Source: Tetradesmus obliquus (lineage: Eukaryota; Chlorophyta; Chlorophyceae; Sphaeropleales; Scenedesmaceae). From it: 64,000 bases of DNA. How positions within the stretch are numbered: the first letter of the stretch is position 1; each line of letters opens with the position of its first letter. The stretch is taken from NCBI GenBank assembly GCA_030272155.1, contig CP126194.1, positions 2,595,501 to 2,659,500 of the forward strand. Reading direction: 5' to 3'. Under the pieces are notes generated by a model that had not been told where the DNA came from, did not search any database, and worked only from the letters and a program-made list of their open reading frames with translations. The position numbers and the translations under genes were made by a program. Positions 970 to 62,300 of this stretch are shown here, one piece after another.

Positions 970-3900
970 CCCCCTGCCTGGCCTTCCCCGCCCTCACCAT
1001 CCCCATACCCTCCTAATCCATCCACCAGCAAGTCCAGCTCAGTCAGAGCCTCTCGCAGCACTGCCTCCGCCCCTTCGTCTTCCAGCGCTGCCCTGCCCGC
1101 AGCGCCGCGCCGCAGCAGCAGCAGCCGCATCGCCGCCAGCGCCTTCTCCTTGCCATCAAGCTCCTCAGCCTGGCCCAGCATGTCCAGCGCCGCAGCCGCA
1201 AACTGAGACATCACCTGCACGAAACCACGCAGCACAACAAACAGGGAGATTAGTTGCAGCGATCCAGCACGCGATCCTTGCAGGAAGTACAGCTGCATGC
1301 AGGCGGCGCCTTCTGAATCAAGCTCCTCAGCTTGCGCCAGCATGTCCAGCAAAACAGCCGCCGACTGCGACATCACTTGCAGCAAGAAACCGCACATGTC
1401 AAATGTCATGCTAGCTTGTAGCGCGAGCCACCAGAGCCGCATGGCATCAGACGCAGCAACTATGCAGCACTGCCGCGATAAGATGCATCATGTTTTGCCG
1501 TAACTTGTGCACACTACACACGCCACCCCGCCTACCTTTTCATCCCACGTCTCCAAGCTCTCATCGTCCCCATTTGCGGTCATCTCAATCAGATCAGCGA
1601 TCAAGTTGATCGCCTTGGCCTTCACGCGCAGCGGCGCCCCTGCAGCCTGGCCAAGCAGTGCCTGCAGCTGCCCCAGCCCTGCTTGCGCATAGAACTGGCT
1701 GCGGGCCAGGGCCACTGGGCTGCGCACAATGCTGCCCAGCGCATACATGGCTTTGTTGGCGGCTCCCTCATGCTTGGAGGCAGCGATCTGGGCGGCGGGA
1801 GGATAGGAGAGAGCAGCGCAGCAGGCTGAGAGGTGGAGTTTGTGCTGCATGCATTGCAACAGATGGCAGATGCTGTGTGTTGACAGCATGAAGCTCCACA
1901 ACTGCTGCTTTGCAGACAGGCTGAGCTAGTGCGCCTGTGCTTAGACAGTCAAAGCACAGCACAGCATCAGCAGCTGCCACTACGTCCAGTAGTTTGTGAT
2001 CAACTAGCCGCTTCAGCAACACCCTGCTGGCCAGCCCGCCGCACCTGCAGCAGCTGCTGCATCGCCCCTGGGTGCTGCTGCAGCAGCGCCTCCACCAGCT
2101 TGGCGTTGTTGCTGGCAGCAGTGCCCAGCACGTAGGCAGCACCCTCCTGCAGCTCCGGCTGCTGCTGCTGCTGCAGCAGGTCCACCAGCGGTGGCAGGCC
2201 GCCCAGCACCTTCAGGTCTGGCGCACATGATGCAGAAGCAACAAGCGAAAGCAGCACAGCATCGGCATCAGCAACATCAGAAGGTGCAGATGCAGGATGT
2301 GTCACTTGTAGCGCAAAGTGAACGCAGCTTGATGACTGGCTCCCAGGAGCTTGGCGCTACATGCCAGGCGCTGCGCTGGAGGCGGCCACTCAAGAAGCTT
2401 GTCAGGGTGACTGAGCAGCAGCCACGCCCACAGGCCGTACACCAGCTGGCGCATTGCTGCTGCTGGGGTGCACAGGCCTGGTGTGGCAGAACCACAGCCA
2501 TTGCTGGCACTGCTTGCCCTGCGTTTCCCTGCTGCCGCTGCCAGCCCTGCCGCTGGCCCTCCTGCTGCTAGCCCTGCTGCTGCTGCTGCTGCCGCCGCGC
2601 ACCGTTGGCATTGTCGATGGGCTCCACCAGCACCTGCAGGTTGCCCAGCGCCTGGCCCCTGTCCGCAGCACTGGAGCCGGCGTCAGTCAGCACAGCAATG
2701 TTGTCCTGCAGCAGCACAGCAGCAGCGACAGCAGCAGCAGCAGCGAAATGCAGTGAGCCCTGCTGATCAACAGCTGCAGCACAACACACCATGGTGTCAG
2801 GTGCTACAGCACCAAGCTGTCATGCAACATCTGCTGCCTTGCCCTTGTCCTCTGTTCACACGGCACATGCCAGCCACCGCAATTGCAAGCGATCTGCAGC
2901 GCATTTAGAAGCTGCTATACGACTGCAGCTGCTGGGCATAGTGGCTGTCATCAGCATCAGTCTATGAGCTGCTGTGTCCAAAGCAAGCAGCCTGGCCTGG
3001 GCTGGTGGTGTGTTGGCAAAGCAACGCCAGCAGCCAGCCTCACCATCATCAGCTGCGCCTCACTGGGCTGCTGCGACACAATGTCTGACAGCTGCAAGCA
3101 AGGAGACAGCACAAAACAAGAGCATGCAGCGGCAGCGGCACGTCAGATGCAGGAGCAACACTCGGCCGCAACAACTGCTCACACGTGTGATTCTGCTGAG
3201 AGTATGCTGGTAGCGCCCCGAGCAGGAGACTCAGGGTGATGCTCCCTAGCACTGTGCTTCTGCTGCAGCAGTAATGATGATGCCAGGCAGCGCAGATAAG
3301 GATGTGCCCTACAGCTGATAGATGACGCGCTGTTGCTGCACGATCCTGCTGCACCCCTGGCATCACCATCCTCGCTGCCTACTTGCAAACCGCAGCTGCT
3401 TCCCATCTGCGAGTGGGTGCTGGCCACACCCTTGCATGCATCTGTTGGCGCCAGAGACAACCAACGTTTGTAGTCGAACCCTATAGTTTCAGTCAGCCCA
3501 CCTCCTGCACGCGCTTCTTGCGCTCCACAAAGTCCTTCACTGCCTCATCCCTGCGCGCCACCTCTGCCTGCTCACGCAGCTTGTCAGGGTCGCTGTGCTC
3601 TGCGCGCACACCCCAACCACCAATAAGCATGCGAATTGCAACATGGCACAGAAATGAGGGATAGAAACATGCACGCATGCTCGTGAAGGTGCCTGGTGAA
3701 GGTGTCTGGTGAAGGTGCCTGAAGCAGCAGCATGCGGCGCTGCATGATGCTGAAGCTGCTGTAGCTGCTGCTTGGTGGCAGTGCCACAGGCGTTGCTGCT
3801 CGTCAAAATTGCAACAGCACGAACACCTGAGACAGCAGTGCAACGCTCTTTAAAAACAAAAAGCACTGCTGGACCATGCCTGCTTGACCAGCATGTGCGT

Positions 3901-4200
3901 CAGCATTAACCAGCTCTGCTGTGCTTCCTGCTGCTGAGTTGGTTGCAGCAGTTGCAAGCCCACTGCCCCACCTATGGCCCAGTGCAGCAGGCTCTCCATC
4001 TCCTTGGCATCCATGTCTTGATCGCCAGAATGTGCTGCATTCAGGTCCACTGCTTCTTGCACAAATTGTGAACCGAAGTCATCTGCTGGTGGTACTGCTG
4101 GTGCTGCTTGGCCTGCAGCTGCTGCTGCTGCCGCTGAGACGGTGCAAAACAGGAGCACAGCAGCCCATCTAGCACAACATGTTATTTTACACCGATTCAT
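822..4200 (-). CDS. SIL1: SIL1-like ER Hsp70 (BiP) nucleotide-exchange factor, 6 exons
   Basis: Exons (minus order): 4200-3972, 3599-3502, 2705-2603, 2217-2045, 1787-1536, 1214-822; total 1248 nt, 415 residues. The Fes1/HspBP1/SIL1 armadillo fold is shown by LLHWAIEHSDPDKL, across the exon 1-2 junction, then VEPIDNANDLKVLGGL, then YVLGTAASNN and MYALGSIVRS. The ATG at 4200 is chosen because it is followed by basic residues and the hydrophobic run [17 protein letters not shown], a likely signal peptide. The protein ends in HAEL, a variant of the HDEL/KDEL retrieval signal. Together these argue for the ER-lumenal SIL1 branch rather than cytosolic Fes1. In that family the protein promotes ADP release from BiP. 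A poly-Gln and acidic stretch near the C-terminus is specific to this copy. The 5' end lies 474 bases from the divergent deaminase gene. Family assignment is firm; SIL1 versus HspBP1 rests on the two targeting signals. Confidence 0.88.
1306..1381 (-). repeat. intronic partial copy of SIL1 exon 6 start
   Basis: Inside the last intron lies a diverged copy of the first 25 or so codons of exon 6. It reads VMSQSAAVLLDMLAQAEELD, against VMSQFAAAALDMLGQAEELD at 1214-1155. The splice-acceptor context is partly retained. It is either an exon-edge duplication remnant or a cryptic alternative exon. Confidence 0.8.
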
Positions 4201-4674
4201 GACTGGACGTGCGCAGCAGTTGCTCAAACAGATGCTATGGGCGTGTACAAGGCTGTGGAATGCTCTGGGGTGTGCACACCTCTTTCCCGTACAAGCTGAG
4301 GCTTTGCAGAACAGTATCAAGCAAAAGCACCTGGTGTTGAACAGTAATTCAGCTACGCGGTTGCCTGCCTGAGCATATCTGGTTCTTCAAGCTCGCTCGG
4401 CAGAAGCTCAACCGGAATGACAGGGTGTCCAGGTTCTGCGACCGCCTTCTACACACGTACTAGCGTACACGCTTTTGTTTGTCGATCATCCTTTTCGCTG
4501 TGTAGTAAGACTGACGATAAACCCGCCCCACGTTGTACGGACACCTTGCTGCGTTGCTACTGCCAACAGCAGTTGCACTGGAGGCAAGTGATCAGCCACG
4601 CCTGGCTCGTATTTAGCAACAAGTTTACTAGCCGTCTGCCCTGAAAGCTGAAACGTGCTAGAAATAGCTATTAC
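4201..4674. promoter_or_regulatory. shared divergent intergenic region, SIL1 / ADAL
   Basis: This 474-base gap separates two start codons that point away from each other, so it must hold both promoters and 5' UTRs. I do not see a convincing TATA box or named element. The call rests on gene geometry only. Confidence 0.5.
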
Positions 4675-7600
4675 ATGAGTAAACAGCAGCTTCAACAGGC
4701 AGTACAGGAGCAACCAGGCTACAGCACCTGGCTGCCTTTCTGCCAGCTGCTGCCAAAGGTGGAGCTGCATGCACACCTCAACGGCTGCGTACGCGCCTCA
4801 ACCATAAGGTGTGGCAGCAAGTTGCAGCAACGTCCAATATGATGCACCTCCGAAAGACCAGCTGAGCCATGCAGATGCACACTGCACATGAGCTTCGCAA
4901 GCCCATGGTGTCTGCGCTTGCACAGTCAGTGCAACACCTTGATGACACTTGGCTTTCTGATTGCTGCTGCTTGCCGCATGACATGTTGCCTCTCAGAGAG
5001 CTGGTGCACTCGCAGCAGCTGAGCAGCCTGTCAGAGGCAGATATTGAGCGCATCACATCCACGGGTGGGTGAGCATCTGGGATACATCTCAGAAGCGTGT
5101 CACTTGTGCTGCAATGATGAGGGAACACTAGCAGGAACGCCAGCAGCAGCTGCTGAGACCTGTCATGTCTCGCTCTGCCTGGAGCAGATTTAGCACACAC
5201 GTGTCACCTGGGCCGCCACCTGTCACAAGCAGCTGCCCTACTCGCACCACGCGCTTGCGTGACGGACACGCATCACGCGCGTGTGTGAGCTGACGTGGCT
5301 TGCCGCGTGTGTGCCCGCAGGCCACCGCTCTCTGGCTGACTGCTTTGTGCTGTTTGACGCCGTGCACCAGCTCACCACCAAGCATGACACCATCACATGC
5401 ATCACGCGCGAGGTGCGCAGGCAGTTGCTGCCGCTGCAGACAACCTTGCTTCTCTTTGCTGGAAAGACAACCCATGATCTTTGCTACTGCAGTGAAACGG
5501 CAATAGAAACACCACCAGCCCTGGATATGCACACCAGCTAGAAGCAGCACCGCATCTGTTGCCCAACGGCACAGCCTGCCTGCGTTCAGAGCACTTGAGG
5601 GCAAGGACAATCTGATGCGTCGCTGCTTGCTGCCGCAGGTCATAGAGGACTTTGCTGCTGAGCAGACCACCTATTTGGAGCTGCGCACAACACCCAAGGT
5701 GTGTGAGGCATGTTTGAGTTCAGGCTGGCAAGCAGCAGCTGCAGGCCTCGTAGATCACAGAAGGCATGGCATACAAGGTGTGTGCACTTGCTCTGCACCA
5801 TGCTGGCATGCAGCAGGCGCAGCACTCGCACATAACAAAAGAACAGCACACAGAAGCGGCACTTCAACATGCCGCCGCCTGTTACGGTTTTGTCATATAC
5901 ATGCATTGATTCTGCTGTCCTGTCATGGAAAGCACCATCATGCTGTTGTCTGGTCTGCTGCTGTCTGCCTGCTGCTGTGTGTGCTGCTGCTGCCAGGACC
6001 GCCCAGAGCACGGCATCAGCAAGCGCTCCTACATGGCAGCGGTGCTGGCAGGCATACAGCAGGCAAGACAGACGCAGCCCGCTGCGGGCATGCTAGTGAA
6101 GCTGCTGCTGAGCATTGACAGGCGCAACGACGCTGCTGCTGCCATGGATACGGTGGGTGGCCCCTGCCCCTTGAGCAAGGGCTTCTGGGGTCTTTGAGGT
6201 GAAGCTGCTGCTGAGCATCGGCAGGCGCAACGTCGCTGCTGCGCCTGTGTATACGGTGGATAGCCGCTGCTGTTGTGACGGGCTTGCTGCTGTAGCCATG
6301 ACAAGCGCACTGCCGTTGCGGAAAACACGCTTTTTGATGGTGCGGTAATGCCCAGTCGTACCTCTGTTGGTTTGGCATGCTGTCCTTGTGCTGGTGGCAT
6401 TTGCCATTATGCTTATGCCGGCTGGTGTCGTGGGCATAGACCTCAGCGGCACCCCCTCAAATGCTGCTGTCACCAATGCCCTTGCATGCTGTGCCATTTG
6501 CAGGTGGCGCTTGCCATCGAGCTGATGCCGGCTGGCGTAGTCGGTGTAGACCTCAGCGGCAACCCCTCAGTAGGCAGCTGGGCCACTTGGCTGCCAGCGC
6601 TGCAGCACGCAAGGCAGGCAGGCCTGAAAGTGACGCTGCACGCAGCAGAAGTCGCCAACTATAAGGAGACGCACGCCATGCTGGACTTTGCGCCTGAGCG
6701 GCTGTGCCACATGTGTGTGCTGGACGAGGCGCTGCAGCAGCGGCTGTGGGTGAGGCGCGCATACTGCAGCTTGCCACGCAGCTGACGGCGATCTGCCATG
6801 TTTAGCAGTACTGCATCAAAAAAGAAGAATGTGCTGTGAGTGCTGCATAGGTGGTGGCTGTTGTGGTGCCAAAAGGCCAATCATGCGGGCCTAGATGCTT
6901 CGACCAGGCTTGATTGCAGCTGAGTTTGGCCTTGATTGAAATTCATTAGTTTCGCAGCAGCGGGGCACTGGCGCACTTGGCTTTGATGACCTGGCTGTCG
7001 TGCTGTCCTGCTGTCGTGCTGTCGTGCTGGCTTCTCGTCCTCCCACTCGCCTCCCGGTGGTGCCAGGCGAGCAACATCCCTGTGGAGCTGTGCCTGACAA
7101 GCAAGTGAGGCAACCTGCAGCTGGCAGAATCCTGACTGGCACGCCTGCTGCTAGAATGCACACATCATGCATTGCACTGCCATTGCGTCACCAGTGCAGC
7201 GCAGCATGTGTTGCCTGTAAGGTAGGCAGCCTTACATCATGCAACGCATCTAGGGCAGGCCTGCGCTGCTGCTGCCATATGTTATGTCTACATGCCACCA
7301 GGCGGTTTGCTAATGCACATTCTGCATTCCTCGCTGCCTGCATTTGTTGCTTGCTGCCACTGCAGTGTGAAGACAAACAGTGTGCCAGGCTACGTGGACC
7401 ATCACTTCAAGCAGTTCTATGCAGCTGGTCACCCGGTGGTGCTCTGCACGGATGACAGCGGCGTGTTTGGCACCACACTGTCACAAGAGTACGCCATAGC
7501 AGCAGCCTCGTTTGGCTTGGAGCAGCAGCAACTGATCGAGCTGGCAGCCAGGGCTGTGGAGTACTGCTTCTGCAGCGAGCAGGAGAAGCAGAAGCTGAGG

Positions 7601-7687: not shown

Positions 7688-7822
7688 GCCTGGTGGCAAC
7701 AGCCTTGTGACTGTGGCTCAAACCAAGAATCACACTTGCTGTCATTCGCAAAGGCATGCGCACAGCCTTGTGCAGGCAAGTTATGCCTCAGGCAGCACTG
7801 CTGCGAGCACTGCATGTGTGCA

Positions 7823-9412
7823 TCACCCCACGCTGCGCACGTGCAGCCACAGCCGCATCTCGCCTGACGTAGGCAGGCCTGCTGCAGCCCACGCCGCCTC
7901 ATCCCAACCACCGCCTGCTGTCATGGGTGGCAGCTTGAAAAGGTTCTCCAAGCCACTAACAGCGTCTCCTGCGACGCAGTCACAAGGAATGGACCACTCG
8001 GAGCCCTTCCAGCTCATCGTCCCAACTACTACGTAGTATACGCTGCGTGGCATGTCTTGCGGGCCTGCATACAGCCCCACTATAGATCCCCCGCCTTTCT
8101 GCTCACACGATACCCACATCTGCCAGGCCAAGCCGCTGAGCGGTGGGCGGCCCTCAGGGCTGCAAAGGAACACTGTCTCCTGCTGCGCAAAGCTGTCGCT
8201 GCAGCCCTGCGCCAGCTGCTCCACCGGCAGGCGCCACTCCAGCTGCACACCACCAGACAGCGGCACGATCTGGCGCGGTGGCAGTGGCCAGCTGGCAGGC
8301 GCGCCGTCTACGGGCTCGTGCTTGATGGCGTCTTTCAGCTGCTCTGCTGAAGCAGCGAGCCTCATAGACAGTAGGCTGCGCAGCTGCCTGCTGTACTCGG
8401 ACAGCAGCAGTTCGCTGCCGTCAGCCAGCGCAGCCCATGACAGCGCAAATCTCGAGAGGTGTGGTGCACGCACCAACTGAGCCAGAGCGGTCCTGGCTGC
8501 TGTTTTGCGTCGAGGTGAGTTCTGCTTGAGCATATACTGCCATGCTGTATGTAACACGGTGTCTTCTGCTGCCACACGCAGCTGGTCGGAGCTCAGCAGC
8601 AGCTGCATTGCTGGCAGCGGCAGGCGCAGCAGCAGCGCCTTGAGCTGGGGGTCTGCCCACACTGCCTCCAGGTCACCCAGCGCTGCAACCAGCAGCCGCT
8701 GCACCCTGCTGTTGCTGTCAGCTGCTGTTATGGCTGCTAGGTCTGCATCCTCTTGCAGTTTGCAGCACGGCGCATGCTGCACTATGACAGGCAGCAGCTG
8801 CAACAGGCAGCATGCCAGGCACTCAGGCTGGCCATCTTTTTTAATGCTGCTGACATGCCCTGCTCTGACGGTGCTGCTGCTCTCAGTGCGTCTGCTGCCT
8901 GCTGAGTTGCAGCAGTTGCTTGCAGCATGTCTGCGATCACCATCGCGTCAATTAGCTGCTACTGATCCAGGTTGTCCATAGCATCTTCCACGCTGTAGAT
9001 GGCTGCGATTACAGCCTCTGCTGCTGGCAGCTGTTCTGTGCTGTCAATGGTGAGGTGCAGGGTGTGCCGGCCAGGGGGCGCCTGGTTGCTGCTGCTGCTG
9101 CTGGCTGGCTGCGGCTGCCAGTGCCGCCCCTGCAGGTGGCAGCAAAGCATGCACAACCATGATGTCTGGGATTTCTTTAATGTGGCGGTCAGTCGCTTGA
9201 ACATGCACTGCAATCCAGGTTATGATGTGACATCAAATGCACTCAACAGTACGCAGCGTTACCCAGCGACCTGGTTGGTGGCATCAGCTGCTGCTGTGCC
9301 ATGAAGAATGGGCCACTGCTTGTGGGCTTACCTGTGCCTCAAAGTACTCGCTGCTGAACAGGATGACTCTGTGGCCTGGAAAGCACGCCAGCTGCTCCAT
9401 AGTGCTGGTAGG

Positions 9413-9454
<42 letters not shown>

Positions 9455-9586
9455 AGCAGCAGCGCTACGCCTGGTTCGCTTGGGCGGGCGCTCATCCTCT
9501 GCGCTTTTCCGCTTGACCTGTATAATTAGATCTACGTCTGCCAACTCCTGCTGTTTGAACTGGCGAGCAGCATAAGCAGAAGCCAT
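7823..9586 (-). pseudogene. BTB-BACK protein, copy A, probably broken
   Basis: Exon 1 (9586-9332) starts MASAYAARQFKQQELADVDL, then a poly-Ala tract from a CTG/GCA microsatellite, then the BTB core FPGHRVILFSSEYFEAQ. Exon 2 starts at 9129 (GRHWQPQ...). It meets TAG at 8959-8961, where copy B has a Gln codon, and a frameshift follows before 8803. From 8803 the frame is open to the stop at 7823. That part carries the BACK-like segment (LPAMQLLLSSDQLRVAAEDT) and a MATH-like C-terminal domain ending EMRLWLHVRSVG. BTB-BACK proteins usually serve as CUL3 E3-ligase adaptors. The nonsense codon and frameshift relative to copy B argue for a pseudogene, unless undetected introns remove them. Confidence 0.75.
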
Positions 9587-10360
9587 GCTGCTGCTTCCAC
9601 TGCCTGAGTACGGTTTGCCAGTGTAGAGATGTTGTTGACCCGAGTGACATAATGCCAGTAAATTAGGTTTTTAGCACGTACAGAACGAAGACGCCGGCTA
9701 CGCAACGGGTGCAGCTTGCGACTGGTTGGTGCACAGCGGCAAACAATGCGCTGAGACTCTGGTCACATGCAGTAGGCCGTTCTATTTTAGAAATTGTGAT
9801 ATGTAGGGCCATTTCATTGTGCTATGTGCCGCGCTAGCGGTTTAAAACCTTGGAACAACGGAAACCAAGGAACATCATTGCATGCCCAAAGGCTGGCCAG
9901 CCTGCAAGCAACTCCAAGCTGTTAAGCCTCTCCACATGCCTTGGTGCTGCAACCGGCATCCAAAGCTGTGACAGCAGCAGGCACGCGTGTAATCAGCGCC
10001 TGACGCTTGCACATAGGCATGGGAGGGCGGGCCGGTCTGAAACGGTCACCTCATGGCCCAGCCCAAGATGTTGACAGGTGCAGCAGGTCACCTGCCCGCT
10101 GTTGGCGCCAAGCAACAGCATCTGCATCAAGTGCGTGTACATGCAGTACATGTCTACTGGGTGGGCATCACCAATACTAGCGGACGTGTCGTGACCAGTT
10201 ATGTCAGAAACCCACCCTTGCAGCAGCTCCAGAGGAGAGTCGCCAGTCACGGCTGGCCTGCTAGCATGCTGGGCTTGAGCTCAACAAGAATGGGCGCATC
10301 AGCACCCTCTGCACCACCACCACAGCACCACTATGGCTGCCCTCGACTGGCTTTATCGCC

Positions 10361-10396
<36 letters not shown>

Positions 10397-10553
10397 CCCA
10401 TGCCTGGCCCGTACAAACACAAGGCCACTATACCACGGCTGTCAATCAAGACAGAGTCCTTGATTGCTCGCGCATGTGCAACTGCCTTGGACTTACTGTA
10501 TCTATTCGCAAGCGCCTGCACACAGCACTAACAACGCACTGCAGCTGTGTGCA
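9587..10553. other. intergenic region between BTB copies, with a degenerate coding-like stretch
   Basis: The minus strand at about 10521-10060 has coding-like pieces in more than one frame: DSVLIDSRGIVALCLYGPGM, poly-Gln, DAPILVELKPSMLAGQP, and ELLQGWVSDITGHDTSASIG. I do not recognise the protein. The frame breaks suggest a relic of a gene or element rather than a live gene. 9600-9990 holds nothing I can name. The 5' region of copy A must lie just right of 9586. Confidence 0.35.
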
Positions 10554-12141
10554 TCACCCCACGCTCCGCACGTGCAGCCACAGCCGCATCTCGCCTGCTG
10601 TGGGCAGGCCAGCAGCAGCCCATGCCGCCTCATCCCAGCCGCCACCTGCCGTCATGGGTGCCAGGCCAAACGCGTTGAATGGGCCATCAACAGCGTCCCC
10701 CAGCAAGCAGCAGCATGGAATGGCCCAATCACGCTCCTCCCAGCCCACTGTAGCATCCATTGTGTAGTAGGTGCCACCTGGCATGCCTTTAGGGCCAGCC
10801 AGCAGGTCCACTACAGTCCCACCCTCCTCCTGCCGAGCTGACACCCACAGCTGCCAGGCCAGGCCGCCGAGCGGTGGGCTGCGCTTGGAGCTGCAAACAA
10901 ACTTGGTCTTCTGCTTCGCGAAGCTGTCCCTGCAGGCTGCCTTTAGCTGCTGCACTGGCAGCCGCCACTCCAGCCGCACACCACCAGCCAGCGGCACGAT
11001 CTGGCGTGGTGGCAGGGCCCAGCTAGCTGGGGCATCTTTGACGTGCTGAGCTGCTGTCAGCTGCTTTGCAAAAGCAGCCAGCTTTTGAGACAGCAGGCTG
11101 CGCAGCTGGCTGCTTTGCTGAGACAGCAGCAGGGCACTGGCGCCTGGCTCAGCCAGCGCAGCCCAGGACAGCGCAAACTGTGACAGGTGTGGTGCATGCA
11201 CCAACTGAGCCAGCGCTGCCTTGGCTGCTGCTTCGTTGCCGAAGGTGTCGCGCGTGCATGTATAGCGCTGTGCTGTGTACAGCACGGTGTCCTCTGATGC
11301 CACACGCAGCTGGTCTGAGCTCAGCAGCAGCTGCATTGCTGGCAGCGGCAGGCCAATCAGCATCACTTTCACGAGCTGTGGGTCTGCCCATGCTGCCTCC
11401 AGGTCACCCAGCGCTGCAATCAGCATCCGCTGCATCCTGCTGTTGCTGTCAGCCGCTTTGATGGCTGCTAGGTCTGCGCCGGCTGGCAGCTTGCAACATG
11501 ACGCATGCTGCACTATGACACGCAGCAGCTGCAGCAGGCAGCCCGGTCAGGCGGGTTGGCCAGCCAGCGCGTCTGCAGTTGCTGCTGATAGGCCATGCTC
11601 TGACTGTGCTGCTTCTCTTAATGCCTCTTCTGCCTGCTGGGCCGCAGCGACTGCGTGCAGCATATCTGCAATCACCACCACATCAACCAGCTGCTGCTGC
11701 TCCAGGATACGCACTGCATCTGGCACGCCATATATAGCCGCAATGATGGCCTCTGCTGCTGGCAGCTGTTCTGCGCTGTCAATGGTGAGGTGCAGAGTCG
11801 GCCGGCCAGGGGCCGCCTGGCTGCTGCTGCTGGCTTGCTGCGGCTGCCAGTGCCGCCCCTGCAGGTGTCAGCAACATGCACACGTATGAGAACGTAGTTC
11901 AAACCACAAGGTTTGGCGAATAGCTTAGACAGCTCCCTGTTTTCCATCATCACTATGACATCAACAGCACATACGTCTCGGACAGCTCCATCCATCAACC
12001 CAGCCAGTGGCACCAGGCTGCAGCTGTGTCATCAATGAGAGTGCGTTGCGCATGCCTCACCTGCACCTCAAAGTACTCGCTGCTGCATAGGACGAGTTTG
12101 TGGCCAGGCAAGCACGCCAGCTGCTCCATTGCGGTGCTAGG

Positions 12142-12180
<39 letters not shown>

Positions 12181-12306
12181 AGCTCTGCGCTTAGCACGTT
12201 TGGGTGGGGGCTCATTGTTTGTTGTTTGTTGTTTGATTTGTATGATTAGACCTACATCTGACAAGTCCTGCTGTTTGAAGTGACGAGCAGCATAAGCAGA
12301 AGCCAT
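10554..12306 (-). CDS. BTB-BACK protein, copy B, one in-frame TGA
   Basis: Exons 12306-12061 and 11858-10554 give 517 codons in one frame. The order is an N-terminal BTB/POZ part split by a poly-Ala insert (LPGHKLVLCSSEYFEVQ), a BTB C-terminal half (LHLTIDSAEQLPAAEAIIAA), BACK (LPAMQLLLSSDQLRVASEDT) and a MATH-like C-terminal domain with W-L-P and LGGLAWQLWVS motifs, ending EMRLWLHVRSVG. The only defect is TGA at 11547-11549, in QPA-stop-PGCLLQLL. From my memory of related algal BTB-BACK proteins a Trp (TGG) sits here, so this may be one point mutation, an assembly error or readthrough. The role is inferred as a substrate adaptor for a cullin-3 ubiquitin ligase. It is a tandem paralogue of copy A, same strand, and the better preserved. 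Confidence 0.7.
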
Positions 12307-13001
12307 GCTGTGTTGCCTCGGTCTCGATTAGGCGTGCCTGTGTAGAGAATGGTTTATCTGGCCGTGACCAAAAGATGCCAGCGCAACGTTATTTGCGTGT
12401 TGCTGCAGGCTCTTGAAAGTGCTTGGTGAAGGATAGGCCCGCAACACAGGATGTATTATCAGTGGTCCGTTGTGTGACTGTACGCTGCAGTTGGAAAAAA
12501 ACAAAAAGCTGTGTTAGGCAGATTTAAATCGGCAAACGCCACCGCAGCGGTCTCACACGCTGGCACATGTGTTTCAACAAGGCTAATCAGTGCTGCCTAA
12601 AACCCGCAGCTGACAAGGTACCTTGTCATGCTTGATTTGGTTGCAGGCTTCAAATCATGTGACTCATGTAACACCGGTGTTATATGGTCATATGATCCGA
12701 AGCCTGCAACCAACTGCATGTACATATGCAACAGTGCCGTACCCGGTATTCATCGCTGTCATCGTTGTGCCACTGTTTCGGAAACAGCAGGCACGCGTGT
12801 CATCCAAGGCATAACGCATGTACACAAGAAGGTGAGCCGGCTGATGTGGCCACTTGATGGCGGATGAAAGGTATGACGTGCGTCCACCAGGCAAGTCACC
12901 TGCCAGCAGCAGCCACTGTCGGCACTTGGCATGCACACATATGCAGTCTGTGAAACAAGCAACACCTACGTCACACGACGCATCCCCAGCAACCAGGCAC
13001 T
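12307..13001. other. intergenic, no supported gene
   Basis: Between the start of BTB copy B and the stop of the next minus-strand gene I see no coding exon. The left part is the presumed promoter of copy B; the right part is the 3' flank of the 13.0-15.6 kb gene. Confidence 0.45.
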
Positions 13002-19100: not shown

Positions 19101-21114
19101 GCTCCTACGGTTTGCTGCTGCTGCTGCTGCTGCCTGTGCCATTGCTGCTGTTGTACATGCCTCCTGCCACCTGCCTGCCCTACTCCTGCCCCTGCTGCCT
19201 GCTGGTCTGCTGCTGGTACTTGGTGTGCTGTCAGCAGCTGGGCAAGCTGTTCAAACTGTGCTGCGATGGCTGGCTGGCTGCAGTACTCGCTGGTGGCTGC
19301 TGTGAGCTTGCGCCATGACTCAGGTTTGATGTCATCCAGCTCCATTGCACAGCGCGCATCAATGGGGTTGAACCTGCACGCACAGAAGCATGATGCATCT
19401 ACATGGGTGCTGCAATGTATGTCAGTGCGCTGCATGTGCAAGGGCGCTGAGCAGGTCGCAGTCGTGACTGCCGTCTGTTGTGCTTCTTTGATGCCTCAGT
19501 ACAGATGCACAGCATGTGTGCTACATAAAACTTGATAACCACCAACACATACAGTTATTTGCTGCAAGCGCAGCAGCCCACCTGTAGTACTGGCAGCCAG
19601 GCACCAGTGGCAGCGTTGCTGCCAGCGCCTCATGCACACGGTCCACGCTGCAGGCGCTCTCTAGCAGCACAGAGCCGGTGTCAATCACCTGCACGGCATG
19701 CAGGCAGAGCAGCGCGACAGAACAGAGATGCAATCCACAAGAAGCATGTGCATTATCCTGCTCATCATCCAATGCAAACATGTGCCGGCAGCAGTTGCGG
19801 GTGCGCCTCAGCACTCCCACAGCCAGTACTGTTCACCACATAGCAAGTGCAGCAGTGCCCAACTAGTCAGCACGGCTGCATTTGAACCCACCGAGCTGAG
19901 GCCCTTGCTGCGCTCCGCTGGCGGCTCTGCGCCGCAGCCCAGCGACACCAGCACGTCAATCGGCAGCTGCGGGTGCAGCAGCCGAGCCTGCGCCAGCGCC
20001 ACCACTGCAGGGTTGTTGGCTGTGGTGGCTCCATCCTGGAAGCGCTTGCCGTCTGGCGTGAGGAAGTCATCCAGATAGTAGGGCGCAGCGCTGGACGCGC
20101 GCACAGCCTGTGGTACATTGCAGGCAGGGAATAGAGGTGGCAGTATGTTCGGCATCACAGGGTTCACTGATGTACCTGTCACTTGCTGTCGTGCAGCTCA
20201 GAATGGCTTAGATATTGCGGGTTTCCAACAAAATCGTTTCGGCACACAGAGGCGTCCGCGAGTTGATCCATTCCGCTCGATCGCTACCCGATCACTGCAC
20301 GCGCCCAAGTACCGCGAAAAACCGGGGCACGCAGAATGACAGCAGAACACCTCCGTCCCGGTCATCAACAACACAAACACACAAACAGGTGTCACTTGCT
20401 GCTGCTATGCGTCGGGATGACGGCCCTACTGCTGTATGCACCTTGGGCAGCAGTAACAAATGCTGCACCAAAGCACCTGCAACTCATGCAGCCATCCAAC
20501 GCCAACAAACAACGACACATACAGTGCCAATGGGGCAAACCAGACGCAGACAGTAGCAGCTGGAGGCATGTGCTGCTGCCGCAGCCGGGCAGGCCGCGCA
20601 CCGAGCTGCTGTCATTCCCTGGCTCTGGCAACAGCTGGGTGCGGCACCTCATCGAAGCCCTCACAGGCTACCGGACCAACAGCATCTATCACTGCAACAA
20701 AAAGGTGACAAACGAGCTCGCAGCCGTCACAAGCTGGCGTGCAAGCCGCAACACATGTGATGCAAGGAGACCAATACAGTTGTGGGGTGCAGCACTAACC
20801 ATGTATGTGCTGCTTGCAGAACTACCCGCCTGAGAGAGCAGCAGACTGCAACAAGTGGAACGTGTCCATCATCACGAAGTCACACATCTTCAGCTGCACA
20901 GCAGCTTGGGACCGTGCGCTGCTGCTGCTGCTGCACCCGCTACACGTCATCAGAGCAGAGTACCAGCGCGCCAACACATGGAACCAAACCGCATTCGTGA
21001 ACGAGCAGCACTGGGACTGGGAAGACTGGTACAAGAAGCTGGAAAAGAACTGCAGGCGCTGGACAAAGGACTATGCAGCCGTCCTGGGTAGCCCAGCTAG
21101 CTTTCTTTCGCAGT

Positions 21115-21148
<34 letters not shown>

Positions 21149-24100
21149 CAGGAAGTCCTGCAGGAGATGCCACAGGTTGTGCAGCGCTGGCCAACCGCAC
21201 CACACATGTGTTTTTCTATGAGGACCTCAAAGACTCTGCAGGAGAGCTGAACAACCACTTCCTGGACCAGCTGCTGCTCCTGCTAGGCATAGAGAGGCAA
21301 GCCGCCTTCTATGAATGTGCACGAGCATTCCCAGAAGGCAGGTTCAAGCGCAGCTACCCGCAGGATGGCAGCCACCCAGCTGTGCAGGTGCTCACTGACG
21401 CAAGGAGTCAGCAGACTGTGGCGAGCGCGGGCTGCTTGGACGCCTACAATGCATACAGGGCTGCATACCCGCGCTTGCTGCCCTTGCCCAGCTAGGACAC
21501 CATCCCGTGTGCAGCATCAGTCCTTCAACATTTGCTGCTACTGCACAAGCGTTCGCAGTGTCAGCTGCTACGAGCCGGCACGAATGCTAGTTGCAGATTG
21601 TGCAGCAGCAAAGGCACCTGGACCTGGCCTCACAGGCCAGCTTGGTTGAGCCGCCCACCAACAGCCCATGCGACCCCCAGACCATATTGGCTAGCAGCAG
21701 GACCACGTGCAGCATGCAGCAGCCCTTTGGAGACCGTGGTGTTGTGTAGCTGCAGCCGTGTAATGGCTGGCAACCACTTAGTGTGACCGCCATGTTGTTT
21801 CCAAGTGTGCAAGCAGCTCAGCTGCCAAGGGCCGCGTTTCCTTGGCATGCACAGCTCGCTGCAGCTGTGCTAGGCGCCTTAATCAGGGCTAACATTTAAA
21901 TCTCTCCACCACCATCCCATCAGCCCACCCATGTGCTGTGAAGGCAACGTTGCCACACCGTGGCATGGCATGTGTCATGGTTGATGCATCTGTTCACATG
22001 TTTTCCTGCTGTGTATGTGCTGTGGTGCCCCGCCGTGCTGCATGGTCCAGCCAGTGTACACACACAATCTGCCTGGCTTCCACTCTCATCGGGTTTCTGT
22101 GCACTTTTTTGCGCTTGCCTATTGGTTGAGTGGCATCAGGCTCCCAGAGGCTGTTGTAAACGCCACAGGCATGTGCACGCTATTGAGGAGCATGCATCCT
22201 TATCATTGTTTACATGCGCAGAGTTGCCTGCAGCTGTGTACAGCTGTTCTGTTAGCGCGCTTGCAGTCGTTGTGCAACACGCTGCTCACCAGCTGTGGTG
22301 TATCTCAAGTGGCCTAGCGCGGCGAGTCTGGCCAGTCATGTGCCCATGGGCAGTCAAGGACAAACGCGCCTTGACTTGTAACGGTAACCGTGCCACACAA
22401 ACCAGACGGAAGTAGTCACAAACTGTCCCTTCCGTGGCACAGCCGACACAGCCGCCTCACGCCACACAACTCACCTCCCACACGTGGTGCTTGCAGCTGC
22501 CGCCACACGCCGCCAGCGCAGCAGCAGCAGGCGCCGCCTCCTCAGGCAGCTCGTAGTTGCGGAAGGCAAAGGGCGCTGCTGGGCGCTCAGAGGCCAGCGT
22601 GGCCACCACAAACACCTTGGGGCCGCCCAGCACAGCCGTGTCGATCAGCCGGTCGGAGGCGCAACCCTGCGGGTGCAGCCAGCAACACAATAATGCAGCC
22701 AGTGAGGCCCAGGCTCGCCGATATTGCGCGCTGTGTACGGTCGAAAAGCAGCAACAATCTGCATTTGGCATGAAGCACTACAAAGAGTGGGATGACACAA
22801 CTAAAGGAGTGGATGACACACCCCGCACGTACACATGCAAGCATAGCACACATATTACTCCTACTCCTATCTCTCCTTGACTCCCCCCACCCCGCTCACC
22901 AGCTGCTGCACCGCGCAGGCCTGCCGCAGCAGCTCCTCGTAGGGCGCGGCGTCGTGCTTGGCGCCGTACACCGCCACGCGCATGCTGGCGCTGCCCGTGG
23001 CGTACATGCGGTACAGGCTCTCCTTCCAGCCAGCCTCCTCCTGGCTCACACTGCTGTGGAATACCTGCAGCGCGATGCAGCACAGCCAGGTAAGACAGCA
23101 GGTGTGACCATAGGGCTGTCGTTTGTGTGAATGCGGTAGTGCGGGCAGAGCATGGGCTGAGGGGCGGGTGGCTGCGCAAGGGTGCCACAGCTGCGGCAGA
23201 GTTCCACCTAGTGTTGCATGCAAAAACAGTGCAGCCGATGCAACCACTCGCCTGCAAGCATCTGGCATGGACAGCAGGCTTCCTGCGCAAACACCCACAA
23301 CAGCTTCAACAACTGCAACCAATACTTGGCGCCCACTTCCCCACCTTGTTGCCCAGCTTTGTGTATATGCATGGGTGTGCTTTGCAAGGCAGCTTGCGCG
23401 GCTCACTTGCATACCCAAAACACACTAAAATATGTGCAACAATTTTAACCAAAACACCAGCATTATGCATCAACTCGCACCTTGTTTCCCAGCTTGGTGT
23501 AGATATCCTGGCACTCATCCAGCTCCAGTTGCAGGATGCCAGTCGCCACCGCCAGCAACCCGCCAGTGCTGGTGCCGCCAATGACGTCAAACAGGCTCCA
23601 GATGGGCGCCCCAGCGCGCCGCTGCAGCTGCCGCAGCAGCTCCACAAGCGCCAGGCCTTTCATGCCGCCACCATCCATGGCCAGCACGCGCAGGCCGCGG
23701 CCACGGATTGGCGGGTCGCCTAGCGCAATGCGCACCTGCTCGTTCTGGCCTGCAGGTGGAGGAACACATGTAGCGGATCAATCAGGTGAATGTGGTTATA
23801 GCAGATAATTGTAACAGACAGGCGGATTGGCGCCTGGGCCAGCGCGATGCACACCTGCTCGTTCTGGCCTGCAGGCGGCCAAACAATCGTGCTGGTGAGC
23901 GTGTTACTTGTTTTGGTGTATTGTGACCGCCACACCTACCCTAGTATACTCGTCACCACACCATGGTCCTTTGACAGTTTCAAATGACGGGAGGTTGGTG
24001 CTACAGGTGTGGGATAAGTGCTGCCAGCTGCAGCAATCCGATTGGCAAGCAAATATGCAGTGATGAGCAGCTCACGCAACTCACCCAGCACAGCCAGCAG

Positions 24101-33100: not shown

Positions 33101-36100
33101 CTCACCACATCCTGTGACGCCACCAGATCTGTGATGGCCTGCACCACGTTGTGCCGCACCAGCCGCCGCGCAGCGCCCGCGTAGCTGCCGGCAGCCGCCA
33201 TGACCTTGACCGCCTGGCCCACCACCAGGCTGCTGCTGCCCAGTGCCGCCAGCACCAGCTGCTGCAGCGCCACGTCCTCACGCACCAGCAGCTGCAGGTT
33301 GCCCGGCTCCTCCACCAGCCGGCCTAGCAGGATGCAGGGTTCAGCAACAGAAGGGTAGCAATGATTATAACAAATTGATAAGCACCAGGATTGCAGTAGC
33401 AGCTGCAGGTTGCCGGGCTCCTCCACCAGGCAGCCCGGTGGGGCGCAGGGTTGAGCAAGGAACGGGGAAGGGTTCAGAGGATTAAAACATGCATCAGCAA
33501 CGCAGCAGCAGCTGCCGCTTGGCAGGCTCCTCAACGAGGTGGTGGCCTGGCGGACACAGGGTGCGTACTGATGCGTTTAAGTATGGGTTTCATTGGGCAA
33601 CTTCATGGCCTTGTTGCAGCATGTCAAAGAGTCTGTGCAAAGCAGTGGCATGCGCAACAGCCAAGTCCATGCAGCAGCAATCCCAGCAATACCCAGAAAT
33701 GTCCAGCTGGCCTGGCCCTGCCTGCCAGCAACTTGAGCAGCCGCGGCAACTCACTGAGTGCGCCCATGAGCAGCGGGTGCTGGATGTTGCTGCGCCTGAA
33801 CACCAGGTTGAACAGCGGCTGCAGCTTGTGGCTGCGCGCGCCGATGACCATGCTGGTGTAGCTGCTGCTGGCGGCAGTCACCTCCACCTCCCACCTGCAG
33901 CAACAGCCACAATGGCACAGCACTGCACATCAAGCCTTCAAAAGCTCCTGTACCTACTCCTGGTATTATGCCAAACCTTCATGGTGATGACCTTAATACA
34001 CACCTGCCAATCTTGCGCGACACGCGGCCAGAACACCCAGCAGCACACCCAGCAGCCTCGGCAAGCATATCAGGCCCGTCTCACCTGCTGTAGGCTGCAT
34101 CCGCCAGAATGCGCACGTTGGCCAGGCTCAGGCTGCGCAGGCCCAGCGCAGGGCCCAGCTCGGGCAGGTAGTCCAGCGGGTTGCCGTACAGCTGCGGCAG
34201 CAGCAGCAGCGACTACTGTCAGTTCACCCCGCAGTGTCAGCAGCTGCGCCCCAACATGTGGGTACGCGAGGGCTTCACAGCAGTACGAATATCCCCTATT
34301 CATACGCAGGTCGACATGCTGCAACCACAAGCCAGGCAGATGCACACTGAAGTCCGCTGGCCGCAGCAGGCACGCAGGTCACCTGCAGTGACGCCAGGCA
34401 TGTGGCGTGTGTGAGGTCCAGCAGCGGCGTGACCAGCCTGTTGTGCTCCAGGTGCAGCTCACGCAGCCGGCAGCAGCGCCGCAGCTCGGCTGCAGGCACG
34501 GCAGGCAGCCAGCAGCACCAGCGTCAGCAAGGCAGACAGCCAGCAGCAGCAACGTTGGTGTCATACAGCAGTGTAATGCGTGGTGGTGCGGTGCTTGGCA
34601 CTACAGCTGTGCCTAACTCGCACAAAGCGAGTGGATCTACAGTTGGTTGCTGCCAGCTGGTTTGTGGTCTGCAGGCCCACTGCTGCATGACTGCCAAAGA
34701 TGCCCAACCTGCCTTGAATCACGCTACAGCTTACCAGGCAATGTCACCAGCTGGTTGTGGTTGGCGCTGAGCACCTCCAGCTCAGTGAGCAGCCCCAGCT
34801 GCAGGCCAGGCCACAGCAAGGCGGGGCAGGCAGCAAGGGCAAAGATTCATAGTCAGACATGCAGGGTGACTAACTTAGAGAGCACAAGTCAGCGAGCAGC
34901 CCCAGCAGCAGTGCATGTAACCAATTGGACAGCACGTCAGCGGCAGGCAGCAAGGCACACGCAAACACTGTTGTAAGCAGGCGTGCACAAGGGCGTGCTC
35001 ACGCGTCCCTATACCTTATGTTCAGCAGAGTACAGCGACAAGTGATGAAGCTTGGCTGCGCACGTGTACTGCAGCATGCATCTGATGTGCTGCTGCTGAT
35101 GGGCCTTGCACCGCATGCGACCAACAAGCCATCCAGAGGATGCTTCCTGATATGCACAACCGCTGACATAGCCCGACAGCTTGCTGTTGCTATGTGGCGT
35201 GAGCAACATCAGCTACGCTCCCTGCCACCAGCAGGCAATTGCTGCTGTCTGCTGTACAGCCTGCTGCGCATTATCCTGCACTGCAGGTGCTGTCCAAACT
35301 GTGTGAATGCTGTTCTGTAACCGCCCTCTGCTGGCACGCTGTCCGCCCTCCTGCCACTGCCCTGCTGCCAAACACTCGCTGCTCACCTCTGGCGTAAGGC
35401 TGACGAGCTTGTTGTGGTTTAGCCGCAGCACCCTTAAACCTCCCAGCTGCCCCACAGCCGCCGGCAACACCCCCAGCCCGCAGCTGCTCAAGTTGAGGCT
35501 CTTCAAACTGCGCCAATCCCCTGGCGCCTGGACACAGGTGGCCCAAAAGTGCCCCAAACCCTCGCAGCCTCGCAGCTTCCACACCCCATCCAGGGCCGTA
35601 TGCGCCAGCAGCGCAGAAACCAGGGTTTCAGATGCATTTCCTGAGCCGCTGGTGCGCGTGAAGTGTATGCTACGTAGCACGGGCGGGCTGCAGGCGACTG
35701 CCAGCCGCACTGTGAGAGACTGGTGTGGGAAGGTTGCTGCATTGGGGATGGGCTCCACGTCCAGGTGCAGTGCAACACGCTCATGGGTGTGCTGCTGCAG
35801 TAACCTGCAGGTGTTGATGGCAGAGCAGGGTGCGTGTGAGGTTGAAAGGAGTGCTTGGCTGTGTGTCGGTGTCGTCGGGTTAAAGCAAGGTTGGCTGGCG
35901 CGTTGGCCGGCAGCAAGCCAGCTGCGGGTGTCCTCAACTGGTGCATAAGAGAACGCTGCACGCGCAAGTGCAGTTGTTGCAAGCATATGTAGATGAACAT
36001 GCTGGCGACTTGGGCAGAGTCGAGGCAGCTGCGCTGCATGATGGCTTGAGGAGCAGGTGGCGACTGTGCCACTGCCGCAATGTGTGCAAGCTGTCAATTA

Positions 36101-46512: not shown

Positions 46513-46526
46513 AAAATAACAGAGAC

Positions 46527-46537: not shown

Positions 46538-46737
46538 TGGCAGTACTTAACTCGTGGAGTATTTTCAGTCTCAGCACTCAATACAGCTGCACTTTCACCC
46601 CCGGTTATCTTCAGACTTTTCTCTCTGCTTTTGCTATTGCCTGGCGAGCTCAAGTCCACGCGAAACTTCAAAAGCATCCTGCGACAGCTACCTGCTGTTC
46701 TTGCCACCTCCGCACTACTGCTCTTACGCCGAATACA

Positions 46738-58560: not shown

Positions 58561-59337
58561 TGAACGTTTAGCAGATCGGGCACTTGGCGATCAGACGTCG
58601 AGAGGCGTGTTTGCGTATGCGATCCTGCTGCCACACGTATGCGTAAGTGCGCGGGAACTGTTTTACTGCTGTGATCCAGAGCCAAACGATGGTAGGCGGG
58701 TCGAAATGGTGATGTATAGTTCAGCACGCACGCATTCAAACCGGGCTACACTAACACAATGCACAGCAGCTGTGACTCAAAGTAGTCAACGTGCGTGAAC
58801 AGCGCAGCTACCGCAGTTGTATCACCCAAAAAACATACTCTGTGATGATTAAATGTAAAAGCAACTTCGATGCCTAATTGGCGCCCAGCTAGGCTTCATC
58901 ATCCGGTTGACCGATTCACTCACGATCCGCAAAAGGTACTCGCTGCATTACGTCAATGAAGCAAAGCGCAAACAGTTTCATCGTCAAATGAAGCCTGCAA
59001 TTGGCAGAGAACTAGGCTTGCTACAGGTATGCTGCTGCAACTTCACTGCTGCTTGCTGTGCTGCCACACCGTCCGCAGGGACGACTCCAGCAATGCCACC
59101 TTCTCGCTTGTCTGCAGCAATCAAACGTGAAGCTGACGTCAGTGCAAAGCAATTGAAAAAGCACTTATCACCGCAGCTTGACAGTGTTCAGCCACAAATA
59201 TTTTCCACATGAGTGCTGCCAATGCAATCATGATCATCAGTGGCTGGCTGGTATGGTATGCAGCCACACAATCGCATCGTGACGGCTGAGGCACCAACCT
59301 GCTGTGAGGGTTGAACACAGCACACGCAATGCAACAT
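58561..59337. other. intergenic, with a possible small plus-strand open frame
   Basis: A frame at 58907-59212 reads SLHYVNEAKRKQFHRQMKPA, then SAAIKREADVSAKQLKKHLS. It looks partly coding, but I see no clear ATG and no family. It would be divergent from the 57.5-58.6 kb gene. The rest holds nothing I can name, apart from presumed promoter and the 3' flank of the TORTIFOLIA1-like gene. Confidence 0.3.
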
Positions 59338-62300
59338 TTATTGCTGCCACAGAACAAAGCTGCCAGCAGGGCACATCGTCACCTGTGGGTCTTCTGCCAC
59401 AGGGCAGCAGTGCAACGCTTCCAGCAGCTGCTGCTGCAGCTCCTCAGGCAGGTCAGGCCGGCCCTCATCTTCGTCAGCCAGCCGCCACAGCCATGGCAGC
59501 ACGCGGTGCAGCATCACGCCGTCCTGTACAATTGCCAGTGCATGCATGCAACAGGCGTGATGCATACCTCGCACCACCCCAGCACACTACCGTGATTGCC
59601 ACATGCTCGCACTCTTGCGTGTATGATATTCGTGCCAGCCGCCGGCATGCATTTGTAGGTTGGTAAGCAACAAGACACGTGCTTCAAGCAGAGCTTGTTT
59701 GCATATGTGCACCTGAACGTGTTTGGCCAAGCCCTGTGATTTGGCCAGCGACTCGTGCTTCAAGCAGAGCTTGTTTGCATATGTGCACCTGAATGTGTTT
59801 GGCCAAGCCCTGTGATTTGGCCAGCGACTCGTTTGCGACACACACCTTGACGTGTTTGATGAAGACAGCCAGCAGGCCCTTGCTGGTGTGTGGCGCCAGC
59901 TTGCTCCAGACAGGCCCCGTCTTCTGGATTAGGCGCAGCAGGTGCACGTCGCCCTTGTCGCCGCGCAGTGCATCAGCATAGGCGGTGTCCAGATCGCTGG
60001 GTGTTGCCATCTGTGACTCCCAGCCCTGGCAAGGCAATGCAGCAGCGACAGAAACAGCAAGGTTGTTAGTGCAAGCAATATCCTGTGGCCTGATCAAGGT
60101 TTCCTGCAATTCCTCTGGGACAAATGTGTTCATGCAATGTTGTGCAACATGCAGTGGGTGGCAAGTGCTGCTGACGGCATGCAGAAAGTGTTGTGGTCGA
60201 GTAACATTTCTTATAGCAGTCAAGCTGTGTGCTCAATGCCTTCAGGGACGCTGGCTGTTTGGCTGCTGCTGCTGTGCTGCACGGACGGCCTGCGCAGCAG
60301 AACCCAGCACCTCACCCTGTTTCCGCCGGCAGACGTGGGTGTGTTGGTGCCGCTGCAGCTCCTGTGCCCTGCTGACAGCGTGTCTAGCACAGACGGCCCC
60401 GGCTTGCAGCGCATGCCACTGCCGCCCACGCTGCCGCTGACCCCTCCTGCGCTGATGCTATTGAAGCCAGGCGTGCCCCAGTCCTCAGACCTGAACATGC
60501 GTGCATAGCCATCTTGCATACCAGGGTCTGTTGCCCACCGGCCTGACGCCCTGCCACCAGACGCTGCTGCCGCTGCTGCTGTTGCTCCTGCTGCTGCTGT
60601 GCCAGGTGTTTCTGGGTTGTCTGCAGATGCCACTGCGACTGCTGCAGCAGCTGCAGCGGCTGCTGCATTGCTGGCGCTCCTGCTGGCTCCCAGCCTGCTG
60701 GGCGAGCCAAGCCCTTGGGGTGCAGTAGGGAACACTACTGGGCTGCTGCTGCCTTTGTGATCACATGCTGCCCCACTGCTGCTGCTGCTGACCAGCTGCT
60801 GTGTCAGCGCCTCAAGCTGGGCTACACGCTCCTGCAGACAGCACATCATCGTGCTTGTAGTAAGAGGGTGCCAGGCTACAGCAGCAGTAGGAAGGGCCAG
60901 CTGGTTATGGAGCACAAAAGTCGCAGCCAGCAGAGCTGTCCTGTCGCATGCTGGGCGGCCAGGCATGCAGCGCCGACTCAGCCAGCACACTCACCTGCAG
61001 GCCTGCCATGGCTGCGCTGTGGGCCTCCTGCATCTGCTGCATGGCGCTTGCCATGGCTGTGTGCTGCTGCTGGTACTGCTGCAGCAGCTGCTGCACCAGC
61101 TCCCACTCTTGCTGAGATGGGCCTGCCCATGCTGACAGGGTCCCTGCAACCAAAACACACGCAACAATGTACATGCACAATTCAGAGACTGTGACTGAGA
61201 ATCCGCGACAGCTGCACTTGCTCCTGGCATTGCTGTGCAGCGAGCTGTGTAGAAAAGAGCAGCGCCTGCTTCAGTGGCACCAGTTCCACAAGCACCTGCT
61301 GAGGGCATATGTGTGGACGTTGGGTGGCACTCACCAGCTGCGGCAGCACTTGCAGCTCTGCTGCTGCTGGCTTTGCTCAGCTGGTGCTGCACGCCACTGG
61401 CTACCCTGGGCAACACCTGCACTGCTGTAGGCTCTGCTGCTGCTGCTGCTGCTGCTGCTGCGCCCTGTCCTGCGTCGCTAGCGCCGTCAGCCTGCTGCAC
61501 AGCTGCAGGCAACAACCCAGCTGCTGCTGTGGTGCTTGCAGGGGTAACAATGTGGCTGCTTTGCCGCTTGAGCGCTGGCTGCTGCTCTGCAGTTGAGCGC
61601 CTGGAGTTGGCGGAACTGCCAGGCCGGCTAGCAGCTGCTGCGCTGCTTGGCCTGCTGCTTGCCGCCGCGCCGCCATTGTTGGCAGGCCTGCTGCTTGTCA
61701 CCTGAGCGCCACTGCTGGCAGGCCTACTGCTGCTGCTGCTATTGCGTGACCACTGCCGGCGTGATGGTTGCTGTTGAAGCTGATGCGGCTGCTCAGCTTC
61801 TGCTTGCTGCTGTTCCTCATCTGGAAGGTGCAGCGTCACCTGAAACCCAGCTGCGGCCGCTGCTGCTGCTGCTTCTGCCTCATCAGCAACAACTCCTGCA
61901 GCGGCATCATAGCTGCCAGCAGCGCTGCTACTGGCACTTGCAGGCCGCTCTTGTGCTGCCGTGCCAGCTGCTGAGCCCCTGTTGCTGCCTGGCTCTGCTA
62001 TCAGGTCCTGCTGCACTGCTGCCTGCTGGAAGCGCTCGCAGATGGGTGATGTGCGCAGCATGTTGAGTGACATGCGGGTCTCAAGGTCGCTGGTGTTGCT
62101 GCGCAGCGGGCTGTGCTGGGCAGAGCTGCTGGTGGGCGTCACGCACCCTGCAGTCAGCAATGAAGCAGCCGCAAGTCAAACATTGAGGGGGGATGCTTGA
62201 GCTCACCGCCGCAACTGGTGATGGCTGAGTTGTTGAGCATATGACCAGTGCTTGGTACGCACATTTGACACATCTGCCAGGGTAGTCAAGTTCATGCAGC

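Follow-up and report, generated by a model that had tools for sequence, protein, structure and literature searches.

Short direct copies of exon edges in the adjoining introns of the green alga Tetradesmus obliquus

Background

Tandem genomic duplication within genes is treated in the Rogers 1989 model and by Gao and Lynch (2009), both as cited in PMC4974935, which also gives a potato RdRp case and mentions an 83-bp intronic tandem duplication. Here we describe a related pattern in the green alga Tetradesmus obliquus, where introns contain short direct copies of the edge of an adjoining exon. It was noticed in a 64-kb stretch of contig CP126194.1 (the whole 64,000 nucleotides analysed, hereafter the window) and recurs elsewhere in the genome. 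Like the internal duplications in PMC4974935, the algal copies are local and direct, and include exon and intron sequence together with splice sites. There, however, one unbroken unit is duplicated and an additional intron arises, whereas in the alga the intron stays single, the copy looks inert, and in most young cases the spacer seems not to belong to a duplicated unit.

Three other systems share some of these features. Small tandem duplications arising by end joining with CST/Pol alpha fill-in (PMC8355091) are likewise direct and short, with a proposed repair origin, and a 76-bp duplication in the putative TOR1 gene of the window would fit them. They are head-to-tail, whereas most young exon-edge copies in the alga have a spacer of 50-100 bp of unrelated sequence and are bounded on one side by a splice junction. 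In Drosophila, introns gained when proto-splice sites are duplicated in tandem (PMC2891723) also involve the duplication of exonic sequence beside splice signals, but they are new introns within coding sequence, while in the alga existing introns receive the copies. Introners (PMC9860276) are a comparable intron-centred gain of sequence that recurs across a genome, but there one element occupies many loci, whereas the algal copies derive from the adjoining exon and three queried spacers match only themselves. Our literature search found no title or abstract describing such a pattern, although most subscription papers lay outside that search and absence from print is therefore not established.

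We propose, with a probability of roughly 0.5, that introns gain short direct copies of the adjoining exon edge through copying during repair or replication, and that these copies are neutral by-products without function.

Results and discussion

Copies recur across the sampled genome and are enriched at exon edges

The sample consists of the window and 25 stretches of 10 kb (designated by L-numbers such as L005 and L010), 20 of which were placed at fixed, non-random positions. Together they make up 314 kb, or 0.3% of the 104.7-Mb, 17-contig genome. Pairs were detected by local gapped similarity at offsets of 25-400 bp, with low-complexity positions scoring nothing; the detector is less sensitive to short units. 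At a score of at least 22 it returned 125 direct pairs in the stretches and 11 in the window. Equally wide control offset ranges at 1, 2 and 3 kb gave 1, 1 and 1 pairs in the stretches and 0, 3 and 0 in the window, and three local order-2 Markov shuffles gave 1, 1 and 1, and 0, 0 and 0, respectively. Since low-complexity positions are unscored, CTG/CAG repeats do not cause this excess, and pairs persist in masked blastn as well; low complexity as the sole cause, which the first-pass annotation of the window had named as a possible refutation, is thus ruled out.

With L018 set aside, four of 25 sequences lack any pair. Identities range from 74% to 100%, a continuum of ages in keeping with the varying divergence already noticed in the window. 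Among 146 pairs, the offset is 75-170 bp in 85, shorter in 16 and longer in 45. This distribution makes slippage alone, one of the origins suggested at first, look unlikely, with the caveat of a detector weaker for short units. L018 holds a large satellite, a satellite-like array at 5-6039 that has offsets of ~280-370 bp and fills over half of the stretch. It is included in the counts at a score of at least 22 and their controls, and excluded from the analyses of location, orientation, edge copies, codons and coding pairs, conversion and boundaries.

Exons were predicted ab initio, without RNA, by a two-strand hidden Markov model trained on the sampled sequences, which learned the donor CAG/GTGAG and the acceptor TGCAG/ (slashes mark the junction). 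The comparison of introns with their flanking exons that the first-pass annotation had proposed, made here for sampled introns of 140-1500 bp, finds a copy in the exon's own intron (score at least 18) for 27/301 donor and 21/307 acceptor edges, 48 of 608 altogether, as against 0 of 608 edges in a swapped-intron control at the same score. Donor and acceptor edges are therefore affected about equally, and 42 of 352 introns, approximately one in eight, carry an edge copy, so that the predicted recurrence beyond the window holds for the sampled genome.

The location of pairs points the same way. Once satellite, long, multi-copy and whole-unit pairs are removed, 104 of 147 pairs remain, and 76 of these touch a predicted exon edge, whereas rotating the annotation gives 40.2 (s.d. 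5.0). Pairs with both members noncoding (22, versus 39.5 expected) or both coding (8, versus 16.5) are depleted. We also assembled 54 coding/noncoding pairs, in which one copy is at most 10% coding; copies that the gene finder called exons are thus left out. The edge is reached or included in 48 of the 54, in line with the idea that copies span exon edges.

Close pairs are direct. Among pairs no more than 400 bp apart, masked blastn on 304 kb finds 176 in direct and none in inverted orientation, with 13 self-palindromes put aside; at greater distances there are 46 direct and four inverted pairs. Templated insertions made by polymerase theta occur in both direct and inverted forms. The inverted insertions of that signature are absent, in that no inverted pair within 400 bp remains after masking, and this one-sided orientation speaks against insertions by end joining in which either strand can be copied.

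Most of the youngest copies end at splice junctions

The youngest class comprises pairs of at least 93% identity at offsets of 70-170 bp, and a pair is called junction-bounded if the similarity ends between -2 and +10 bp from the junction. In this class 10 of the 11 coding/noncoding pairs are junction-bounded, and all 11 are partial. In eight of the ten young pairs that can be tested, the spacer and the stretch beyond the copy share no homology. A looser count, which drops the 10%-coding filter, includes every class and accepts a junction in either copy, finds 14 of the 17 young edge pairs junction-bounded; of the remaining three, two are arrays that do no more than touch a predicted exon. Across all 54 coding/noncoding pairs, 27 are junction-bounded; the median length of their spacers is 71 bp, and that of their exonic parts 42 bp.

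The account that has to be weighed most carefully is plain neutral tandem duplication combined with ascertainment, which we regard as unlikely, though a serious contender. Units of ~75-270 bp would arise anywhere, with no targeting of edges. Exonic units would be purged and intronic ones would fade along two lineages, while edge-spanning ones would stay visible longer by virtue of their coding copy, so weaker edge enrichment is expected among the youngest pairs. This is the trend observed: pairs touching an edge number 14 of 27 versus 8.8 (s.d. 2.7) expected at an identity of at least 0.94, 30 of 38 versus 14.1 at 0.87-0.94, and 25 of 28 versus 12.1 at 0.80-0.87. The class below 0.80 (7 of 11 versus 5.2) departs from it. 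Tandem duplication would also fit the direct orientation of masked pairs within 400 bp, the occurrence of whole-unit tandem pairs at offsets similar to those of edge pairs, the spacer homology of some pairs, and the 76-bp duplication at 59678-59829 of the window.

However, tandem duplication predicts that young copies run on into the intron. We simulated neutral tandem duplications spanning predicted exon edges and passed them through the same detector. Among young simulated pairs, 7% and 11% were junction-bounded under two settings, and 15%, 27% and 40% under three harsher ones, in which indels were longer or introns evolved at two or three times the rate; partial pairs alone reached 29%, 48% and 53% in the harsher simulations. 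All of these fall short of 10 in 11. Junction-bounded pairs also make up 4/11, 4/13 and 1/2 of the older classes, compared with 9-17% in simulation, and the missing spacer homology of most young pairs is likewise not what tandem duplication predicts. Tandem duplication with ascertainment was consequently rejected as a full account: it fits the age trend and the older pairs, but its simulations fail for the youngest ones, and the junction-ended freshest copies are not readily explained by ordinary tandem duplication.

Several observations weigh against copying of exon edges as a separate process. If introns evolve three times faster than copies, the excess of junction-bounded pairs falls to p ~0.0007 against all simulated pairs and 0.01 against partial ones. 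Spacers of two of the ten testable young pairs (L010 and L013) do have homology, at 77-86%, and spacer homology at p<=0.1 is present in 1/9 and 4/16 older pairs, as expected of true tandem duplication. Duplications of whole units occur too, accounting for 39 of the 146 pairs. The contrast with noncoding sequence is not clean, since five of the seven noncoding pairs of the youngest class are also partial; three of these five fall within an insertion in the window that is rich in repeats, one (L012) joins two exon-edge copies, and in one (L005) the remainder is masked. With dust masking only, one non-palindromic inverted pair appears within 400 bp, in a CAG-rich part of the window (41674-41719/41772-41817). 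Finally, the youngest class numbers only 11 pairs, whose edges come from the ab initio model, and in the wider counts some pairs are not independent because they stem from one multi-copy locus.

Of the 27 junction-bounded pairs, those on the donor side end at -2, -2, 0, 1, 1, 4, 6, 6, 6, 7, 7, 7, 8 and 8, and the acceptor-side distances are 3, 3, 3, 4, 4, 5, 5, 5, 5, 6, 9, 9 and 10. Such positions, together with direct orientation, would fit a specific form of the proposed copying that is coupled to transcripts, with a nascent RNA or an R-loop as the template for an edge and its splice site (donors to about +8, acceptors from about -5). Transcript RNA has been reported (PMC11390984) to have a sequence-specific influence on end joining close to exon-intron junctions, which lends this idea some support. 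But there is no obvious cause for an RNA template to end at +8 or for synthesis to halt at -5, part of the matched intron bases are simply splice-site consensus, and the numbers are small. We therefore think transcript-coupled copying improbable.

Copying bounded by splice junctions may nevertheless be a distinct mutational class, although the numbers are small. In its wider form, this would be a process coupled to splice junctions that acts in one orientation only and marks about one intron in eight, with the nature of the template left open (perhaps the nascent transcript or R-loops); we rate that form as rather doubtful. A template linked to splicing or to the transcript is the boldest reading of the data, and is speculative.

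As for the spacers, those of L010, L006 and L020 were queried against the genome in a search that skips simple repeats, and the spacer regions matched only themselves. This argues against a mobile element, and a transposon or introner origin was rejected for these three spacer regions. A separate, dispersed sequence does occur in L017, where 63 bp at 1418-1480 recur on many contigs, in over 30 places as a lower bound, with 95-100% identity.

Copies decay approximately as neutral sequence

Among the 54 coding/noncoding pairs, mismatches at the three codon positions number 5/254, 10/253 and 27/253 at identities of at least 0.9, and 62/477, 49/478 and 98/468 below 0.9. The third-position excess of the younger group is mild (27 of 42 coding mismatches), and the young junction-bounded pairs are roughly neutral in this respect (3/192, 8/190 and 16/192). 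Indels are present in 21 of the 54 pairs and an in-frame stop in two. The copies thus decay about as a neutral copy of an exon that is free at third positions would, and look inert.

These data bear on whether the pairs are old tandem duplications whose exonic parts were kept alike by gene conversion or selection while their spacers drifted. The identities of copy and spacer are indeed uncoupled in L010 (100% versus 86%) and L013 (95.5% versus 77%). Conversion should leave patches, but exonic parts have none to speak of (3/58 at p<0.05, combined p 0.27), and the roughly neutral codon positions of the young pairs also disagree with this account, which we consider highly improbable. Noncoding parts are patchy (8/35 at p<0.05, combined p 5e-5). 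An assembly artefact, in which two divergent haplotypes were joined locally, could produce the third-position bias at identities of at least 0.9, but not readily the continuum of ages down to 74%, the frequent indels or the multi-copy arrays, and the chance that it explains the pairs is very slight.

The first-pass annotation saw the copies as a source of cryptic alternative exons. A splice dinucleotide is retained in 36 of the 45 copies with an aligned edge, as functional, mutually exclusive or cryptic exons would require. However, pairs align at a single splice edge only, indels are common, codon positions are about neutral, and homologous proteins of the two genes examined, ADAL and a U5 snRNP GTPase, have each segment once; this suggestion is accordingly not supported, and a function as exons is the least probable account of those considered here. 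For ADAL, seven homologues carry each copied segment once. Its protein, which is 96-98% identical to a Tetradesmus obliquus protein, matches its relatives straight across the junction of exons 5 and 6 (AMDT/VALAIE), in agreement with the gene finder's placement, so in this gene no new intron was made.

The gene for the U5 snRNP GTPase (EFTUD2 family) in L020 is the best example set for exon-edge copying. Each of three different exon edges occurs roughly three times, at 2627-2959, 3631-3893 and 1400-1703; the first of these is a 100% identical array of 2.4 units. The closest homologue found, a transcript-derived protein, has each segment once. The homologous transcript-derived protein (P0121) ends in RRKPPQLGEQQ, which compares with the exon end near 1660-1696 of L020 as if the intron at that edge had been retained and read to a stop.

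A possible route of copying

Under the favoured proposal of copying by repair or replication, a break would occur in an intron, and its repair, or replication, would use the nearby exon edge as a template and insert a piece made up of ~15-70 bp of exon and a few bases of intron, as a rule ~50-100 bp from the exon. As long as the outermost splice sites remain functional, the transcript would be unaffected and the copy could persist, thereafter decaying as ordinary intron sequence. Mispairing between source and copy might sometimes seed a tandem array, from X-S-X to X-S-X-S-X. We infer that the copy rather than the spacer is the inserted part; a break as the starting point, the enzymes and the unchanged transcript likewise belong to the model.

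If the boundary result holds genome-wide, DNA would be copied with ends set by splice sites, linking rearrangement to splicing or transcription, and the copies would provide a series of datable events against which ideas on the lengthening of introns and the origin of repeat arrays could be tested. Should it fail, they would still be a dense natural record of short duplications and a warning for gene prediction: copies resemble exons, and the gene finder used here called some of them exons.

Copies and other features of the window

Comparison of the window with itself reveals local direct repeats at all the places named in the first-pass annotation. Five of the six cases listed there as exon-edge copies, in SIL1, ADAL (two) and PLA I (two), are borne out by alignment (Table 1). 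Pfam supports the identity of SIL1 (Fes1/SIL1 family), ADAL and the patatin-like gene (Patatin family). The sixth, in the putative TOR1 gene, proved instead to be a tandem duplication lying wholly within the intron, 16 bp away from the predicted exon edge at 59846; the best match of the unit to that edge (14 of 16 bases) was equalled in 36 of 500 shuffles and is not significant.

Table 1. Source segments and copies located in the window
Gene	Feature	Coordinates	Strand	Details	Basis
SIL1-like	Source, acceptor-side start of exon 822-1214	1155..1219	-		local alignment, exon model, Fes1/SIL1 family
SIL1-like	Intronic copy of exon 822-1214 edge	1317..1381	-	offset 162, 83% identity, spacer 97 bp	alignment
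ADAL	Source, exon 5 end plus 15 bp past donor	6096..6167	+	edge 6152/6153	alignment, exon model, protein alignment
ADAL	Intronic copy of exon 5 end with donor	6199..6270	+	offset 103, 89% identity	alignment
ADAL	Intronic copy of exon 6 start	6375..6459	+	offset 109, 82% identity; acceptor AG is TG in copy	alignment
ADAL	Source, intron end plus exon 6 start	6484..6569	+	edge 6503/6504	alignment, exon model, protein alignment
PLA I (patatin-like)	Source, exon 23481-23749 start with 10 intronic bp	23704..23759	-		alignment, exon model, Patatin family
PLA I	Intronic copy of exon 23481-23749 edge	23823..23878	-	offset 119, 86% identity	alignment
PLA I (gene as named in the first-pass annotation)	Source exon edge	33287..33347	-		alignment
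PLA I	Second copy of 33287-33347 edge	33398..33458	-	offset 111, 84% identity	alignment
PLA I	Third, older and more diverged copy of 33287-33347 edge	33500..33538	-		score 21.5, matched by 0/500 shuffles
TOR1	Intron, unit 1 of 76-bp head-to-tail duplication	59678..59753	.		self-comparison
TOR1	Intron, unit 2 of 76-bp duplication	59754..59829	.	one mismatch	exon-edge homology not significant

The window has other features as well. A 1.8-kb direct duplication of 76% identity (7807-9629 and 10536-12348) is probably a tandem gene pair. An open gene at ~20570-21500 on the plus strand, which we take to be sulfotransferase-like although a 41-amino-acid piece has no Pfam match, is seemingly nested within an intron of the minus-strand patatin-like gene. 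The repeat-rich insertion spans ~25480-31860 and contains identical repeats of 95-168 bp (at 26870, 29386 and 31762); predicted exons are unreliable there. Near 25650 it includes a stretch that, judged by a motif, is presumably reverse-transcriptase-like, although a 58-amino-acid piece of it lacks a Pfam match. The insertion is followed by a tRNA at 31939-32011.

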